Shown here in pieces: positions 18,578-42,662 of a DNA stretch of 55,031 bases. Where the stretch lies: positions 1 through 55,031 of the forward strand of contig JAJDNB010000003.1 of the NCBI GenBank assembly GCA_022340905.1, written 5' to 3'. The DNA is from Deltaproteobacteria bacterium (lineage in GTDB: Bacteria; Desulfobacterota; Syntrophobacteria; BM002). The notes beneath the pieces are model-generated. The model saw nothing but the letters and a program-made list of their open reading frames with translations, was not told the origin of the DNA and searched no databases. Position 1 is the stretch's first letter. Each line of letters begins with the position of its first letter. The translations under genes and the position numbers were made by a program.

Positions 18578-18606
18578 TTGACAAAAGGCAGACTGCGGAT
18601 TATAGA
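18578..18606 (+). promoter_or_regulatory. dsrD promoter
   Basis: TTGACA (18578-18583), a 17-base spacer and TATAGA (18601-18606) make a near-consensus sigma-70 promoter about 60 bases ahead of dsrD. Confidence 0.75.
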
Positions 18607-18614
18607 AGGAGAGT

Positions 18615-18631
18615 GAGTGAATTGATTCACT
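18615..18631. promoter_or_regulatory. Palindromic operator at dsrD start site (Rex-like)
   Basis: AGTGAAT-TG-ATTCACT (18616-18631) is a perfect seven-base inverted repeat beginning nine bases after the -10 box, so a bound protein would overlap the transcription start. The 16 bases GAGTGAATTGATTCAC are identical to those at the dsrA promoter. The core GTGAA-N4-TTCAC equals the core of known Rex sites. Confidence 0.7.
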
Positions 18632-18670
18632 TATTCGTTTTTCCATTCACTACCCCTCAAGGAGGAAGAA

Positions 18671-18913
18671 ATGAGTGATGCAGAGAAACAGGCGATTCTT
18701 GATTTCATGAAATCTAAAAAGGGAAAGACCAAGCACTATTTCAATGAGCTCTGCAAGGCACTGCCCGACATGAAAATGCGCCAGGTCAAGAAAATTATAA
18801 ACGAAATGGTCAACGACGGGCAGCTCAAATACTGGTCCAGCGGCAGTACCACACTTTACTTACTTCCCGAACATGCCGACCTGGGTGCAGAAGAGAAGGG
18901 GATGGGCGACTAG
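18671..18913 (+). CDS. dsrD: DsrD, activator of dissimilatory sulfite reductase
   Basis: An 80-residue winged-helix protein. It has the DsrD pattern KKGKTKHYFNELCKALPDMK, then RQVKKIINEMVNDGQLKYWS with the strongly conserved LKYWSSGSTTLYLL wing. DsrD is known to bind and stimulate DsrAB and marks the reductive pathway. Here it is upstream of dsrA and separated from it by about 600 bases and a terminator, whereas the usual order is dsrABD. AAGGAGGAAG precedes the ATG. Own promoter and operator imply independent but parallel control with dsrAB. Confidence 0.95.
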   Translation: MSDAEKQAILDFMKSKKGKTKHYFNELCKALPDMKMRQVKKIINEMVNDGQLKYWSSGSTTLYLLPEHADLGAEEKGMGD

Positions 18914-19095
18914 GCCATCACCTGGCCAATGTCAAATCTGGCTCTTTTACCAGTTTACGGAAGGGATGCCACACGAGGTTGACCGGCGAACAGAGTCTCT
19001 GAATTCTTTCTTGGGGTCGGCCGTGTTCTTATGTAACAGCCTATTTTGGCCTTCCACCGAAACGCTTCGCTATAGCCCTCAAGAGGTTAAGCCCG

Positions 19096-19135
19096 AGGCC
19101 GCAACCAACTCTTAAGGAAATTGGGGCGGCCTTTT
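19096..19135 (+). terminator. Rho-independent terminator after dsrD
   Basis: AGGCCGC-AACCAA pairs with TTGGGG-CGGCCT around a twelve-base loop, followed by TTTTC. It lies 180 bases behind dsrD and before the dsrA promoter, closing the dsrD unit. Confidence 0.7.
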
Positions 19136-19268
19136 CTGTTAGAACACAAATAAGTGAGACTATAACTGCAGGTGAGTTGATTGTCTGCATCTGAGAGGGC
19201 AGGGCGCTGGTACCTGCGGTCCAGATCCTTCCCATTGCCCCCCAGCTATTTCCTCGATCTTATTTTGA

Positions 19269-19297
19269 TTGACAAAAGTTAAAATACGGTTTATACA
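19269..19297 (+). promoter_or_regulatory. dsrA promoter
   Basis: TTGACA (19269-19274), a 17-base spacer and TATACA (19292-19297), the same architecture as the dsrD promoter. It predicts an unusually long 5' untranslated leader of about 215 bases, which holds a GAATAGCGC direct repeat (19327 and about 19371) and a small AATAGC-GCA-GCTATT hairpin. Confidence 0.75.
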
Positions 19298-19310
19298 AAC
19301 GTAAATCACT

Positions 19311-19326
19311 GAGTGAATTGATTCAC
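19311..19326. promoter_or_regulatory. Palindromic operator at dsrA start site (Rex-like)
   Basis: GAGTGAATTGATTCAC, identical over 16 bases to the element at dsrD, starting 14 bases after the -10 box. The symmetric part is GTGAAT-TG-ATTCAC. Confidence 0.7.
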
Positions 19327-19519: not shown

Positions 19520-20794
19520 ATGGCTCTAAAACACAAGACCCCCCTGCTGGACGAGCTGGAAAAGGGGCGCTGGCCAAGCTTCATCTCGGACATTAAGCAG
19601 ATGGCCGAGAAAAAACCCATGTGTGAAGACCTCTTGGGCGTAATGGAAAGGTCCTACGAGGATAAAGAGGGTCATTGGAAGCACGGCGGCATTGTGGGTG
19701 TTTTGGGTTATGGCGGAGGCGTTATCGGCCGCTATTGCGACCGTCCCGACCTTTTCCCCAACGTCGCTCACTTTCACACCCTCCGTGTGAATCAGCCCGC
19801 AAGTAAGTTTTACTCCACCGAGCAGCTTAGAAAAATTTGTGAACTGTGGGAGAGGCGCGGCAGCGGTCTCACCAACATGCATGGCTCAACCGGTGACGTC
19901 ATCCTCCTCGGCACCACCACCGACGAGTTGGAGCCCGTCTTCTACGAATTGACCCATAACCTGAACATGGACCTGGGTGGATCAGGCTCCAACCTACGTA
20001 CCCCCAGTTGTTGCATGGGCAAAGCCCGCTGCGAATGGTCCTGTCTGGACACTCAGGCTATCACCTACGACCTCACCAATACCTTCCAGGACGAGCTCCA
20101 CCGGCCCATGTTTCCTTACAAGTTCAAGTTCAAGACCTCCGGCTGCCCCAACGACTGTGTAGCCGCCATTGCCCGGGCCGACTGCTCAATCATCGGCACC
20201 TGGCGTGACAATATCCGCATCGACCAGGAGGCTGTAAGAGCTTATGCCGCCGGTGACTTTGCTCCCAACGGCAATGCTCACGGCACGGGAGCGACCGCTC
20301 TGGACATTCAGAAAGAGGTCTGCGATCTCTGTCCCACCGCTTGCATCGACTGGGACGGCAAGAACCTGAAAATCTGGGATGAAAACTGCACTCGCTGCAT
20401 GCACTGCATCAATGTCATGCCCCGGGCTCTGCGGCCGGGGAAAGATGTGGGTGCCACCATCCTGTGCGGTGCTAAAGCTCCCATCCTCGAGGGTGCGCAA
20501 CTTTCCAGCGTCATCATTCCCTTCATCAAGATGGAAGAGCCTTATGATGAATTCAAGGAATTCGTCGAGAAGATGTGGGATTGGTGGATGGAACTCGGCA
20601 AGAACCGCGAGCGCCTGGGCGAACTGATCCAGAGGCTTGGCCTCAGGGAATTCCTCAAAGCAGTTGAATTGGAACCCGATCCACGGATGATCAACACACC
20701 GCGTTACAACCCCTACATCTTCTACGACCGAGAAGATGTGCCTGGTGGTTGGGAGATTGACGCAGTAGCTTTCCGCAAGAAACACCATGCCTAG
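19520..20794 (+). CDS. dsrA: Dissimilatory sulfite reductase alpha subunit
   Basis: A 424-residue subunit of the DsrAB siroheme enzyme that reduces sulfite with DsrC in the cytoplasm. The siroheme/4Fe-4S ligand motifs are intact: CMGKARC (Cys165, Cys171) and GCPNDC (Cys209, Cys213). A ferredoxin domain follows (CDLCPTAC and CTRCMHC), then the MPRAL segment. An in-frame GTG at 19502 exists, but it lies within the strong AGGAGGT ribosome site; the ATG at 19520 is the start. dsrB follows after 12 bases. GC content and C-ending codons are higher than in neighbours, as expected of a highly expressed gene. Long antisense frames over it are shadows. Confidence 0.97.
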   Translation: MALKHKTPLLDELEKGRWPSFISDIKQMAEKKPMCEDLLGVMERSYEDKEGHWKHGGIVGVLGYGGGVIGRYCDRPDLFPNVAHFHTLRVNQPASKFYSTEQLRKICELWERRGSGLTNMHGSTGDVILLGTTTDELEPVFYELTHNLNMDLGGSGSNLRTPSCCMGKARCEWSCLDTQAITYDLTNTFQDELHRPMFPYKFKFKTSGCPNDCVAAIARADCSIIGTWRDNIRIDQEAVRAYAAGDFAPNGNAHGTGATALDIQKEVCDLCPTACIDWDGKNLKIWDENCTRCMHCINVMPRALRPGKDVGATILCGAKAPILEGAQLSSVIIPFIKMEEPYDEFKEFVEKMWDWWMELGKNRERLGELIQRLGLREFLKAVELEPDPRMINTPRYNPYIFYDREDVPGGWEIDAVAFRKKHHA

Positions 20795-20806
20795 GAGGTG
20801 AACACA

Positions 20807-21922
20807 ATGGCTTTTGATCCCAATGATCTGATGAAAGACCGTATTACGGATATCGGGCCGCCCCACTATGAGCAGTTTTTCCCGCCCGTTATCAAGGAAA
20901 ACTACGGCAAGTGGAAATATCACGAGATTCTCGAGCCTGGGGTGCTCGTCCACGTCTCGGAAACCGGTGCGGAAGTCTACACCGTCAGGGTGGGCGGCTG
21001 CCGGCTCATGAGCGTTGAAATCATCCGGGAGATCTGCGACATTGCCGACAAGCACTGTGAAGGCTATGTTCGCTGGACGACCCGAAATAATGTGGAGTTC
21101 ATGGTGGACGATAAGGCCAAGCTGCAACCGTTGATCGACGACCTCAAGGGTCGGAAGTTCGCCGGTGGCAGCAACAAGTTCCCCATCGGCGGTACTGGCG
21201 CTGGAGTAACCAACATCGTTCACACCCAGGGCTGGCTCCACTGCCATACTCCGGCGATCGACGCCTCCGGAATCGTGAAAGCTGTCCTCGATGAACTTTA
21301 TGACGACTTCTGTGGCATGCGCCTTCCGGCTCAGGTGCGCATCTCCCTGGCCTGCTGCTTGAACATGTGCGGTGCCGTGCACTGCTCCGACATCGCCATT
21401 CTTGGCGTTCACAGAAAGCCGCCTTTCGTTGAACATGAAAGAATCAGCAAGGTCTGTGAAGTTCCGCTGGCCATTGCAGCTTGTCCCACGGCGGCCATCA
21501 AACCAAGCAAAGTGGATGATAAGAAGAGCGTAGCAGTAAACGCCGAGCGCTGCATGTTTTGCGGCAACTGCTACACCATGTGCCCGGCCATGCCCTTGGC
21601 TAACGCTGACGGTGACGGTATCGCTCTGTGGGTGGGAGGTAAAGTGTCCAACTCCCGCTGCGCGCCCAAGTTTTCCAAACTGGCAGTGCCTTACATTCCC
21701 AACGAACCGCCGCGCTGGCCCACCACGGTCAAGACCATAAAAAGGATTGTGGATCTTTACGCCAGTGACGCCAATCGTTATGAGCGTATAGGCGAGTGGA
21801 TCGAGCGCATCGGCTGGGAAAAGTTCTTCGAGAAGGCCGAACTGGAATTCCGTCATGAGCACATTGACGACTACCGCTTGGCCATGACCACCTGGAGAAC
21901 AACCACTCAGTTCAAGTGGTAA
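20807..21922 (+). CDS. dsrB: Dissimilatory sulfite reductase beta subunit
   Basis: A 371-residue partner of DsrA. It carries the coupled siroheme motif [16 protein letters not shown], the TTRNNVEF sulfite-channel region and a ferredoxin domain with [15 protein letters not shown]. In the alpha2-beta2 enzyme the catalytic siroheme depends on the beta-subunit cysteines. The ATG at 20807 has AGGAGGTG at ideal distance; the GTG at 20798 lies within that site. It is co-transcribed with dsrA and followed after 18 bases by dsrN. Confidence 0.97.
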
Positions 21923-21940
21923 GGAAGTAACCTGAAATCT

Positions 21941-23407
21941 ATGGATAACAGCAAACCCCGCGTAGTGATAGCAGGTCTGCGCGGCGGTTCAGGAAAAACC
22001 ACTCTTTCCCTTGGATTGGTAGCCGCCTGGCGGCAAAGGGGAGGGGAGGTTGTACCCTTTAAAAAGGGACCTGATTATATTGACGCGGGCTGGCTGGCCT
22101 TGGCTGCCGGCCAGCCTTGCTATAATCTAGATCCGTATATGATGAGCGGGGAGCAAATCCTCGACTCATTCTGGCAACACGTTCAGACAGCTGATGCCGC
22201 AGTAATCGAAGGTAATCGCGGCCTTTTTGACGGAATGGACGCTGATGGCACATGTAGCACTGCAGAACTGGCGAAATTGCTCCAAGCACCGGTGCTTTTG
22301 GTGGTGGATGGGACCATGGTCACCCGCACAGCGGCTGCGACTGTCTTAGGCTGCCAGTATCTTGACCCTGAGGTGGATATCCGGGGTGTAGTTTTGAACC
22401 GGGTGGCAGGACCCCGTCACCAGGAGATGCTGAGAACCACAATTGAGCGTTATTGCGGGGTTCCAGTGGTAGGTGCCATTCCCAAGCTCAGGGGAGACGA
22501 TTTCCCTGAGCGACATATGGGTTTGGTCACCGCCCTCGAGCATCCGGAAGCGAGGGAGGCCATTTTTGCTCGGATTCAGGTTGTTGAAAGCTATCTGGAT
22601 CTGGAGAAGGTACTTGCAATAGCCGACCAGGCTCCCCCGCTCACCTGGGAGCCAGCTTACCCCGGGAAAAGGGCGAGCAAGGCCTATCGCCGGCTAACTA
22701 TTGGGATTATCAGGGATTCTGCCTTTCAATTCTATTATCCTGAAAATCTCGAGGCTCTCGAAAGAAGGGGGGCAAGGTTGGTGACCATAAACGCTTTGGA
22801 AGACACCTTTCTCCCCGAACTGGATGGGCTTTATATCGGCGGCGGTTTTCCCGAGACTCATGCAGAGCAATTAGCTGCCAATGATCAACTCAGAAAGGCA
22901 CTTAGATCGGCAATTCATGCTGGGATGCCGGTCTATGCTGAATGCGGCGGTCTCATGTACCTGGGGCGGAGCTTGCTGATTAATAATAGCACATATCCTA
23001 TGGTAGAAGCTCTGCCCATTGACTTCCAGTTGGAAAAGAAGCCACAGGGACACGGCTACACCGACCTGGAAGTGGTGAATACAAATCCTTTTTATCCGGT
23101 GGGAACCACTTTGAAGGGACATGAATTTCATTATTCCCGGGTGACCCGCTTCGACCTGAACCCCGAATCATTAGCATTCACCATGAAGAGAGGGTCTGGT
23201 ATCTTGGATCGAAAGGATGGAGTGTGTTATAAGAACATATTGGCCACCTATTCGCATGTCCATGCCGTCGGCACGCCGGAATGGGCCGAGGGCTTGATCA
23301 GGCGGGCCCTGGCATACCAACGGGAGTTGAGAGGCAATACTAAGGAGAATAAGAGAAAAATGGACCACTGGACTACCAACACTGGGGTTGGCGACAGGGT
23401 CCGCTAA
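21941..23407 (+). CDS. dsrN: DsrN, siroheme amidase (cobyrinate a,c-diamide synthase family)
   Basis: A 488-residue ATP- and glutamine-dependent amidotransferase of the CobB/CbiA family. The dethiobiotin-synthetase-like half has the P loop GGSGKTT (15-21); the glutaminase half has the nucleophile in YAECGGLMYLG (Cys335) and a C-terminal HYSR/SHVHA region. In dsr operons this homologue is DsrN, which amidates siroheme to the form used by DsrAB. Lying between dsrB and dsrC, without other cobalamin genes in the window, supports that role over B12 synthesis. The last 25 residues are a polar tail of uncertain conservation. Confidence 0.92.
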   Translation: MDNSKPRVVIAGLRGGSGKTTLSLGLVAAWRQRGGEVVPFKKGPDYIDAGWLALAAGQPCYNLDPYMMSGEQILDSFWQHVQTADAAVIEGNRGLFDGMDADGTCSTAELAKLLQAPVLLVVDGTMVTRTAAATVLGCQYLDPEVDIRGVVLNRVAGPRHQEMLRTTIERYCGVPVVGAIPKLRGDDFPERHMGLVTALEHPEAREAIFARIQVVESYLDLEKVLAIADQAPPLTWEPAYPGKRASKAYRRLTIGIIRDSAFQFYYPENLEALERRGARLVTINALEDTFLPELDGLYIGGGFPETHAEQLAANDQLRKALRSAIHAGMPVYAECGGLMYLGRSLLINNSTYPMVEALPIDFQLEKKPQGHGYTDLEVVNTNPFYPVGTTLKGHEFHYSRVTRFDLNPESLAFTMKRGSGILDRKDGVCYKNILATYSHVHAVGTPEWAEGLIRRALAYQRELRGNTKENKRKMDHWTTNTGVGDRVR

Positions 23408-23428
23408 TAAAATTAGGAGGTGAATTTC

Positions 23429-23746
23429 ATGGCAACAGTTGAGCATGCCGGCAAAACGTTCGAGATTGATGAAGACGGCTTCATCGATGCTTTTGACAGT
23501 TGGTGCCCCGAGTGGGTTGATTACGTAAAAAGCTCCGAGGGCATTCAGGAGCTGACCGAAGAGCACTGGAAGGTCATCCACGTACTGCAGGACTACTATC
23601 AGAAACACGGTATTGCCCCCATGGTCCGGATCCTTACCAAGGTAACGGGATACAAGCTCAAATACATCTACGAGCTCTTTCCCTCTGGACCAGGTAAAGG
23701 TGCCTGTAAGATGGCTGGGCTACCCAAGCCTACAGGCTGCGTCTAA
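23429..23746 (+). CDS. dsrC: DsrC sulfur carrier, co-substrate of sulfite reductase
   Basis: A 105-residue TusE/DsrC protein. The flexible C-terminal arm keeps both redox cysteines, Cys93 and the penultimate Cys104, ten residues apart (GACKMAGLPKPTGCV). This two-cysteine form takes the sulfite sulfur as a trisulfide and hands it to the membrane complex DsrMKJOP. The ATG at 23429 has AGGAGGTG; a GTG nine bases earlier is in the ribosome site. Having dsrC in the dsrAB operon is uncommon in sulfate reducers, where it is often a distant single gene. DsrMKJOP is not in the window. Confidence 0.96.
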   Translation: MATVEHAGKTFEIDEDGFIDAFDSWCPEWVDYVKSSEGIQELTEEHWKVIHVLQDYYQKHGIAPMVRILTKVTGYKLKYIYELFPSGPGKGACKMAGLPKPTGCV

Positions 23747-41912: not shown

Positions 41913-42662
41913 CTAGTGGTCAGCTATGGTTTGGAAAAATTCCTCGATGAGTTTGCGGAGGTAAGGATTGGGTTCAGTGAACTTCACTCCCATGCGTGCT
42001 TTCCTTCCCCCCATTGCGCGCGCCCAGACAATATGGCCCGCCACCTTAACCATGGGTTTGCCAGGAAGGGTAAATTGAAAGGAGAACTGGGCACCCAGAC
42101 GGTGGGTTGATTCACTAAAGCTGTTTGTGAGCAGGGCTAATCCCATGCCGGTATTTGCCAAGTCTAGAAGAATACCTTGGTAGGTCTCCGTCCTAACACC
42201 CCCTTCAGGGGAGTAGGTCACCTGAATGCGCAGGTCCTGCAAGGGATTCCGCGTTGCTTCACGTCTTTCCAGGCTCGGCTTATCCATCCGCCTCGCCGCA
42301 AGCCGGGAAGCTAATGCTGTCGTCTTACTGAAGCGCTCAGCTAATTCTTTGAGCATCTTTTGAAAGAGCGGTGAGAGTGTTTTGTATTCACCCGATAACT
42401 TTTCATGATCTAAAATCCCAACTTTCACCTTGCCTCTAGCGGAAATGGTTGCAGAGCGAGCTCCTACCCTCTGTGCCAAGAACGAAACCTCGCCAAAGAT
42501 GTCACCTTCCTCGAGCAAAGCGAGCGTCACCTGGCCTTTATCGGTTTCCTTGGTCACTTTCGCTTGCCCCTCGAGAAGAACATAGATATTCCGGTCGCTC
42601 TCTCCTCCTTCCATTAGAATAAGTTCGCCATCCTCGTATTCTACAGTATGCCTAACTTCCAT
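41913..42662 (-). CDS. Cyclic-nucleotide-binding domain fused to PilZ domain
   Basis: A 249-residue soluble protein. Residues 5-95 form a cNMP-binding domain with the phosphate cassette FGEVSFLAQRVGARSAT. Residues 130-245 form a PilZ domain with the c-di-GMP motif RREATR (133-138) and DLANTGMG (167-174, normally D/NxSxxG). No DNA-binding or output domain is present, so it may integrate two nucleotide second messengers and act on a partner protein. The serine of the second PilZ motif is changed to threonine one position on (NTG), which may weaken binding. It stands alone. Confidence 0.85.
   Translation of the reverse strand: MEVRHTVEYEDGELILMEGGESDRNIYVLLEGQAKVTKETDKGQVTLALLEEGDIFGEVSFLAQRVGARSATISARGKVKVGILDHEKLSGEYKTLSPLFQKMLKELAERFSKTTALASRLAARRMDKPSLERREATRNPLQDLRIQVTYSPEGGVRTETYQGILLDLANTGMGLALLTNSFSESTHRLGAQFSFQFTLPGKPMVKVAGHIVWARAMGGRKARMGVKFTEPNPYLRKLIEEFFQTIADH

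Follow-up and report, generated by a model that had tools for sequence, protein, structure and literature searches.

A conserved putative repressor operator upstream of dsrD and dsrABNC in Syntrophobacteria

The stretch of 55,031 nucleotides analysed here (the window, contig JAJDNB010000003.1) belongs to a Deltaproteobacteria bacterium whose genome spans 4.10 Mb in 278 contigs. It carries dsrD (18671-18913) and the sulfite reductase operon dsrABNC (19520-23746) as neighbouring transcription units, each headed by its own promoter-operator module (18578-18630 for dsrD, 19269-19326 for dsrA). Sulfite reductase is the hallmark enzyme of sulfate-respiring bacteria. In both modules a predicted promoter of the form TTGACA-17-TATA(G/C)A is followed by the same 16-mer, GAGTGAATTGATTCAC, an arrangement first pointed out in a sequence-only reading of the window and borne out by the coordinates. 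The window contains two exact copies of the 16-mer, and the features of the locus are as follows.

18578 to 18606, plus strand: predicted dsrD promoter (−35 TTGACA at 18578-18583, spacer of 17, −10 TATAGA at 18601-18606)
18615 to 18631, no strand: putative dsrD operator (16-mer GAGTGAATTGATTCAC at 18615-18630; symmetric form AGTGAATTGATTCACT at 18616-18631)
18671 to 18913, plus strand: dsrD (Pfam DsrD, 3.1e-30)
19269 to 19297, plus strand: predicted dsrA promoter (−35 TTGACA at 19269-19274, spacer of 17, −10 TATACA at 19292-19297)
19311 to 19326, no strand: putative dsrA operator (GAGTGAATTGATTCAC)
19520 to 20794, plus strand: dsrA (Pfam NIR_SIR; 84-90% identity to the full-length copies of genus members)
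20798 to 21922, plus strand: dsrB (Pfam NIR_SIR)
21941 to 23407, plus strand: dsrN, a CobB/CbiA-type amidase (Pfam GATase_3 and CbiA)
23420 to 23746, plus strand: dsrC (Pfam DsrC, 1.6e-36)

The earlier reading had taken the repeat to be a 16-base palindrome common to both genes. The two 16-mers are indeed identical, but the symmetry extends over 16 bases at dsrD (AGTGAAT-N2-ATTCACT) and 14 at dsrA (GTGAAT-N2-ATTCAC), and the leading G of the 16-mer lies outside the palindrome. The 16-mer follows the −10 box after 8 bases at dsrD and after 13 at dsrA, and the operators fall at about +2 to +18 and +7 to +22, respectively, relative to the predicted starts; these positions support the proposed location, across the start site or immediately downstream of it, where a repressor could act. 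Both −10 boxes match TATAAT at just 4 of 6 positions, and a consensus promoter scan, which accepts only T as the sixth base, omits both promoters. In 55 kb, arithmetic leads one to expect about 0.35 direct pairs of exact 16-base repeats, so such a repeat is not rare in itself; the pair owes its significance to its symmetry, its position at promoters and, above all, its conservation among relatives. In the whole genome, GTGAATNNATTCAC was found at the dsrD and dsrA places only. At 18611-18636 the dsrD operator is contained in an 11-pair stem followed by a T-rich run, which scores as terminator-like; the dsrA operator does not.

Conservation was followed in 46 dsrD-encoding loci from named genomes, in 12 genomes of the family (9 with a DsrA-like match) and in 40 regions fetched after a phylum-wide search that found DsrD in 162 of 395 genomes. 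Loci with duplicate upstream sequence (last 110 bases), matches below 30% identity or starting past residue 30, and upstream stretches shorter than 150 bases were removed. Class membership of loci L039-L065 was assigned by titles and gene order, and the class is one that we take to be Syntrophobacteria, on the basis of the same-class kinship of genome G182 and general taxonomic knowledge.

Of 43 non-redundant relatives, 29 have the core GTGAA-N4-TTCAC upstream of dsrD, where Markov resampling expects 0.018; when all 1024 cores of that form were tested, the next best reached 1 of 43. It lies within 260 bases of dsrD in 9/10 family members and 20/33 other class-assigned members, and within 300 bases of dsrA in 8/8 family members. 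None of the 31 class members outside the family carries it before dsrA, and in other classes it was absent from all 33 dsrA and all 34 dsrD upstream regions. Aligned across six genus members, the dsrD-dsrA gap has 59 of 74 invariant columns within the module as compared to 146 of 541 outside it, with the dsrA operator invariant throughout (16/16 columns). TTGACAA is retained before the dsrD sites of relatives. Desulfacinum and Desulforhabdus (loci L052, L055 and L049) are among the cultured genera in which the site occurs. The sharing of the site by dsrD and dsrA is not due to chance, and the operator is confined, within our sample, to the class Syntrophobacteria. In peatland-type Syntrophobacteraceae (L059-L062 and L064, including the metagenome-assembled genomes BA69 and BA129), the −35 box of dsrD is mostly kept and the palindrome is absent.

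The presence of twin modules follows from the gene order. The class order is dsrD-dsrA-dsrB-dsrN-dsrC, with dsrD first, a short dsrD-dsrA gap and a single operator; in the genus this gap measures 435-641 bases, and dsrA has a separate promoter and operator. Genome G005 carries a second promoter-operator immediately before dsrN (L036:3001-5800, L021), at a place where dsrAB is missing; at a distance of about 8 kb, the contig also carries a divergent dsrAB without the site (about 61% to the DsrA of the window).

A third target emerged in 6 of the 9 genus genomes (G000, G002-G006), where the same core precedes a selenocysteine HdrL-like gene, here called hdrL. Its product combines HdrA and glutamate-synthase-like parts and contains Pfam FAD, pyridine-nucleotide and 4Fe-4S domains. 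In 6/6 genus genomes for which the gene was available, the module consists of TTGATW or TTGAAA, 17 bases and TATAGTGAAAAA(G/C)TTCAC; the operator begins inside the −10 box, TATAGT, and the likely start codon, read from relatives, is downstream of the site. No hdrL-type place was seen in the other three genus genomes (G001, G007 and G008). The gene (L101:1-990 and L102:1755-6200, both on the minus strand) has an in-frame TGA in TNDCSM-U-IISPKLVEVG and likely encodes a selenocysteine protein of 1481 residues, with many relatives per genome. Its domains fit the HdrL type of Desulfobacterium autotrophicum, in which hdrL1 and mvhD adjoin dsrABC, a cluster interpreted in the available part of its description as an NADH-to-sulfite route (PMC2702500). 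Because of that neighbourhood, a shared site at hdrL would make metabolic sense.

Across six genomes GTGAA-N4-TTCAC occurs only 5 (own genome), 4, 4, 5, 4 and 3 times, and 13 of these 25 places are dsr or hdrL promoters; of the other 12, all 11 that were inspected (G182:C73 was not) fall within open frames 90 or more codons long, by a loose test. The strict site, AGTGAA-N4-TTCACK, is present in 20 of 21 genomes. The sequence-only reading had suggested that sat, aprBA, qmo and dsrMKJOP might carry the same site; the strict site occurs in the own genome at dsrD, dsrA and hdrL only, leaving none over for these four sets, which were not individually located. With one mismatch allowed, AGTGAANNNNTTCACT matched 35 places in G000, G002 and G006, including 9 at dsrD, dsrA or hdrL, while 25 of the other 26 (all except G006:C212) were inspected and are mostly inside open frames. 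Those at or before a gene start or in intergenic positions (G000:C103, G000:C184, G002:155940, G002:2929423 and G006:C200) are not common between genomes; the one at G002:155940 precedes an HdrC-like gene.

AGTGAA-N4-TTCAC(T/G) thus stands just behind or overlapping a TTGACA-type promoter at dsrD in much of the class, at dsrA in the family and at the HdrL-like gene in the genus. A palindrome over or directly behind a promoter and kept in relatives has the general make-up of a repressor operator, and judging from sequence we consider the operator at these sulfite reduction genes real, conserved and of the repressor type. In the class Syntrophobacteria it is probably bound by a transcriptional repressor specific to sulfite reduction. 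A homodimeric helix-turn-helix repressor would occupy the palindrome and block RNA polymerase at the start site; it would leave the DNA upon a signal of sulfite or electron supply, and the NAD(H)-linked Hdr protein would then increase together with DsrD and DsrABNC. The operator begins past the −10 box at dsrD and dsrA (by the 8 and 13 bases given above) and inside it at hdrL, so that the predicted starts are covered or flanked; the dsrD and dsrA positions are half a helix turn apart, and this difference in helix phase points to a steric block rather than to contact with an activator. The shared control of dsrD and dsrABNC proposed earlier is thereby supported at the level of predicted sites, and a small regulon for sulfite reduction comprising dsrD, dsrABNC and hdrL appears to be the best reading.

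Several observations weigh against a dedicated repressor. No DNA-binding transcription factor was found among the window proteins scanned, which did not include every frame, and none of the strict-site places inspected in 21 genomes belongs to a regulator gene. The exact core is missing from 13/33 other class members, mostly with the −35 box retained. Outside the genus, a search of 22 genomes found the full core upstream of hdrL relatives in 0/30 loci (L240 and L262 reach 9/10 of the core; L244, L245 and L265 had no usable upstream sequence), and the hdrL target is hence a genus feature. Apart from these points, a described dsr operator or dsr repressor was not found in the literature by title and abstract, a coverage that largely leaves out subscription papers. 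The dsr neighbours in 19 loci, named by eye, are TPR, FKBP, siroheme-decarboxylase and unrelated genes. In several Syntrophobacteraceae, a siroheme-decarboxylase-like gene with an AsnC-type helix-turn-helix is found near dsr (L172:7612-8610, minus strand; L040:89-1072), adjoining the TPR and FKBP genes. In the window, the protein encoded at 41913-42662 (minus strand) combines cyclic-nucleotide-binding and PilZ domains, and a DNA-binding domain was not found in it.

The main rival to a dedicated repressor is Rex, which the sequence-only reading had proposed as the regulator of dsrD and dsrABNC from the likeness of their sites to TTGTGAA-N4-TTCACAA. In this view, Rex-NAD+ would repress dsrD, dsrABNC and hdrL through an operator with relaxed flanks and release it as NADH rises. 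The likeness is genuine in the core kept by 29/43 relatives, which is identical and correctly spaced and so also counts against a dedicated repressor, but the outer TT/AA is not matched. The genome contains a single rex gene (PF06971, E 4.9e-21), as that reading had anticipated, adjoining the atp genes. In Thermotoga maritima Rex, residues R48, K49, R60 and G61 contact operator bases, of which G, G and A are read in the major groove (PMC8836258, available in part); the aligned residues here are identical, and all of these bases are retained in the dsr sites. In the same crystal structure the two outer bases are contacted from the minor groove (PMC8836258), where A in place of T may be tolerated. 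Rex is also reported to repress sat in D. vulgaris (PMC7531388, partial text), and an NAD(H)-linked HdrL would be a fitting target. Against this, the base next to the core (position −1) is A in 55, C in 15, G in 4 and T in 0 of 74 dsr half-sites. The dsrD and dsrA sites differ from the Rex form at 4 and 3 of 14 positions, and the window contains 66 places with at most 4 mismatches, among them these two. BA69 (L062) and BA129 (L061) are reported to encode Rex (PMC11451228), yet lack the site.

Rex appears to have other sites in this lineage. Allowing at most one mismatch, TTGTKAA-N4-TTMACAA matched 3 places in G000, 4 in G006 and 2 in G010, and since the reversed control gave 2, 2 and 3, these totals alone prove little. 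The places recur at the same genes, atpF in 3/3 genomes and an MFS transporter in 3/3 (identified by Pfam for the G000 copies), and the recurring palindromes read TTGTTAA-N4-TTAACAA, unlike the dsr sites. Such palindromes lie near position 1501 in L137, L131, L135, L134, L133 and L132 (one with a mismatch), before atpF or beside the MFS transporter. atpF and the transporter therefore likely form a small Rex regulon of the lineage, as far as their sites reveal. At the other Rex-type targets considered, sat and atp, the dsr-type site was not found, with the atpF site being different and sat not located. We reject Rex as the straightforward owner on account of the flanks and the genome-wide sites, and the assignment of the dsr sites to Rex is weak; with the outer contacts in the minor groove and all major-groove bases retained, we nevertheless keep the relaxed-flank version as an unlikely alternative rather than dismissing it. 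The caution already voiced in the sequence-only reading, that another regulator with a similar site is possible, stands.

A CRP/FNR-type, HcpR-like protein reading GTGA-N6-TCAC is very improbable as the owner of the site. This frame does fit the CRP half-site, and a few diverged sites (L038 and L045) retain GTGA/TCAC but lose the adjacent A. Compared with TTGTGA-N6-TCACAA, the sites have 4/12 mismatches at dsrD and 3/12 at dsrA, too many to count as members, and the T usual at −1 in such sites is absent from the dsr half-sites. The own genome encodes one clear CRP/FNR protein above the Pfam cut-off (the L211 product), with an FNR-like reading helix, SETLSR; the reading helix of CRP is RETVGR. 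A delta-proteobacterial study, seen in part, associates Arg 180 with GTGA sites and Ser or Pro with TTGAC, predicts HcpR to repress sat and apsAB in Desulfovibrio from sites over the −10 box, and reports dsrAB as missing from the HcpR regulon (PMC545781). The sole protein above the cut-off has Ser, not Arg, at position 180, and CRP/HcpR was rejected on this ground. Still less probable is a role of the palindrome in RNA, as a 5' hairpin acting as a stabiliser or attenuator: the dsrD and dsrA sites are downstream of the predicted starts and would be transcribed, the former within its 11-pair stem with T-rich sequence after it, but what is kept is the base sequence, the unbroken dsrA stem has just 6 pairs, and the hdrL site overlaps the −10 box, for which we rejected this explanation. 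The winged-helix protein DsrD as its own repressor is the most far-fetched of these possibilities. The site precedes dsrD and few other places, and local regulators often adjoin their operator; however, DsrD has the same helix in class members with and without the site, is widespread in other classes that lack it, and reportedly activates DsrAB allosterically (PMC11451228). Autoregulation by DsrD was rejected because presence or absence of the site is not mirrored in the helix. Motifs of the LacI/Cra and ArgR types were also discarded, the former because the centre of the site is variable and not CG, the latter because ArgR half-sites are separated by four bases instead of two. The site itself makes canonical Rex or a CRP-type protein less likely than some other regulator.

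The proposed dsr operator resembles known systems in part. With Rex operators it shares the five-base core, the four-base spacer, a position over the start site and a target in sulfate respiration, but the outer TT/AA is missing in every site read, and the Rex-form targets of the own genome are atpF and the transporter. With the HcpR/CRP-type sites of Desulfovibrio it shares the GTGA-N6-TCAC frame and a predicted repression of sulfate reduction from the −10 region; it lacks the outer TT, the predicted HcpR targets are sat and apsAB rather than dsr, and the protein encoded here is FNR-like. In D. autotrophicum, as here, sulfite reductase and HdrL are brought together, there by gene neighbourhood (the accessible description of hdrL1-mvhD-dsrABC mentions no operator), here through an operator common to loci that lie apart.

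Little is known of how dsr is switched in sulfate reducers; one comparative study proposes HcpR at sat and apsAB and reports dsrAB to be absent from its regulon (PMC545781). A conserved dsrD-dsrABNC operator in cultured genera offers a direct handle on the regulator and its signal, and the shared site would join sulfite reductase and the HdrL protein through regulation. What would be new, and we advance it tentatively, is a dedicated repressor of dissimilatory sulfite reduction in Syntrophobacteria that reads AGTGAA-N4-TTCACT and ties an HdrL electron-bifurcation gene to the sulfite reductase operon in one small regulon. If true, such a repressor would let facultative syntrophs alternate between respiring sulfate and living without it.
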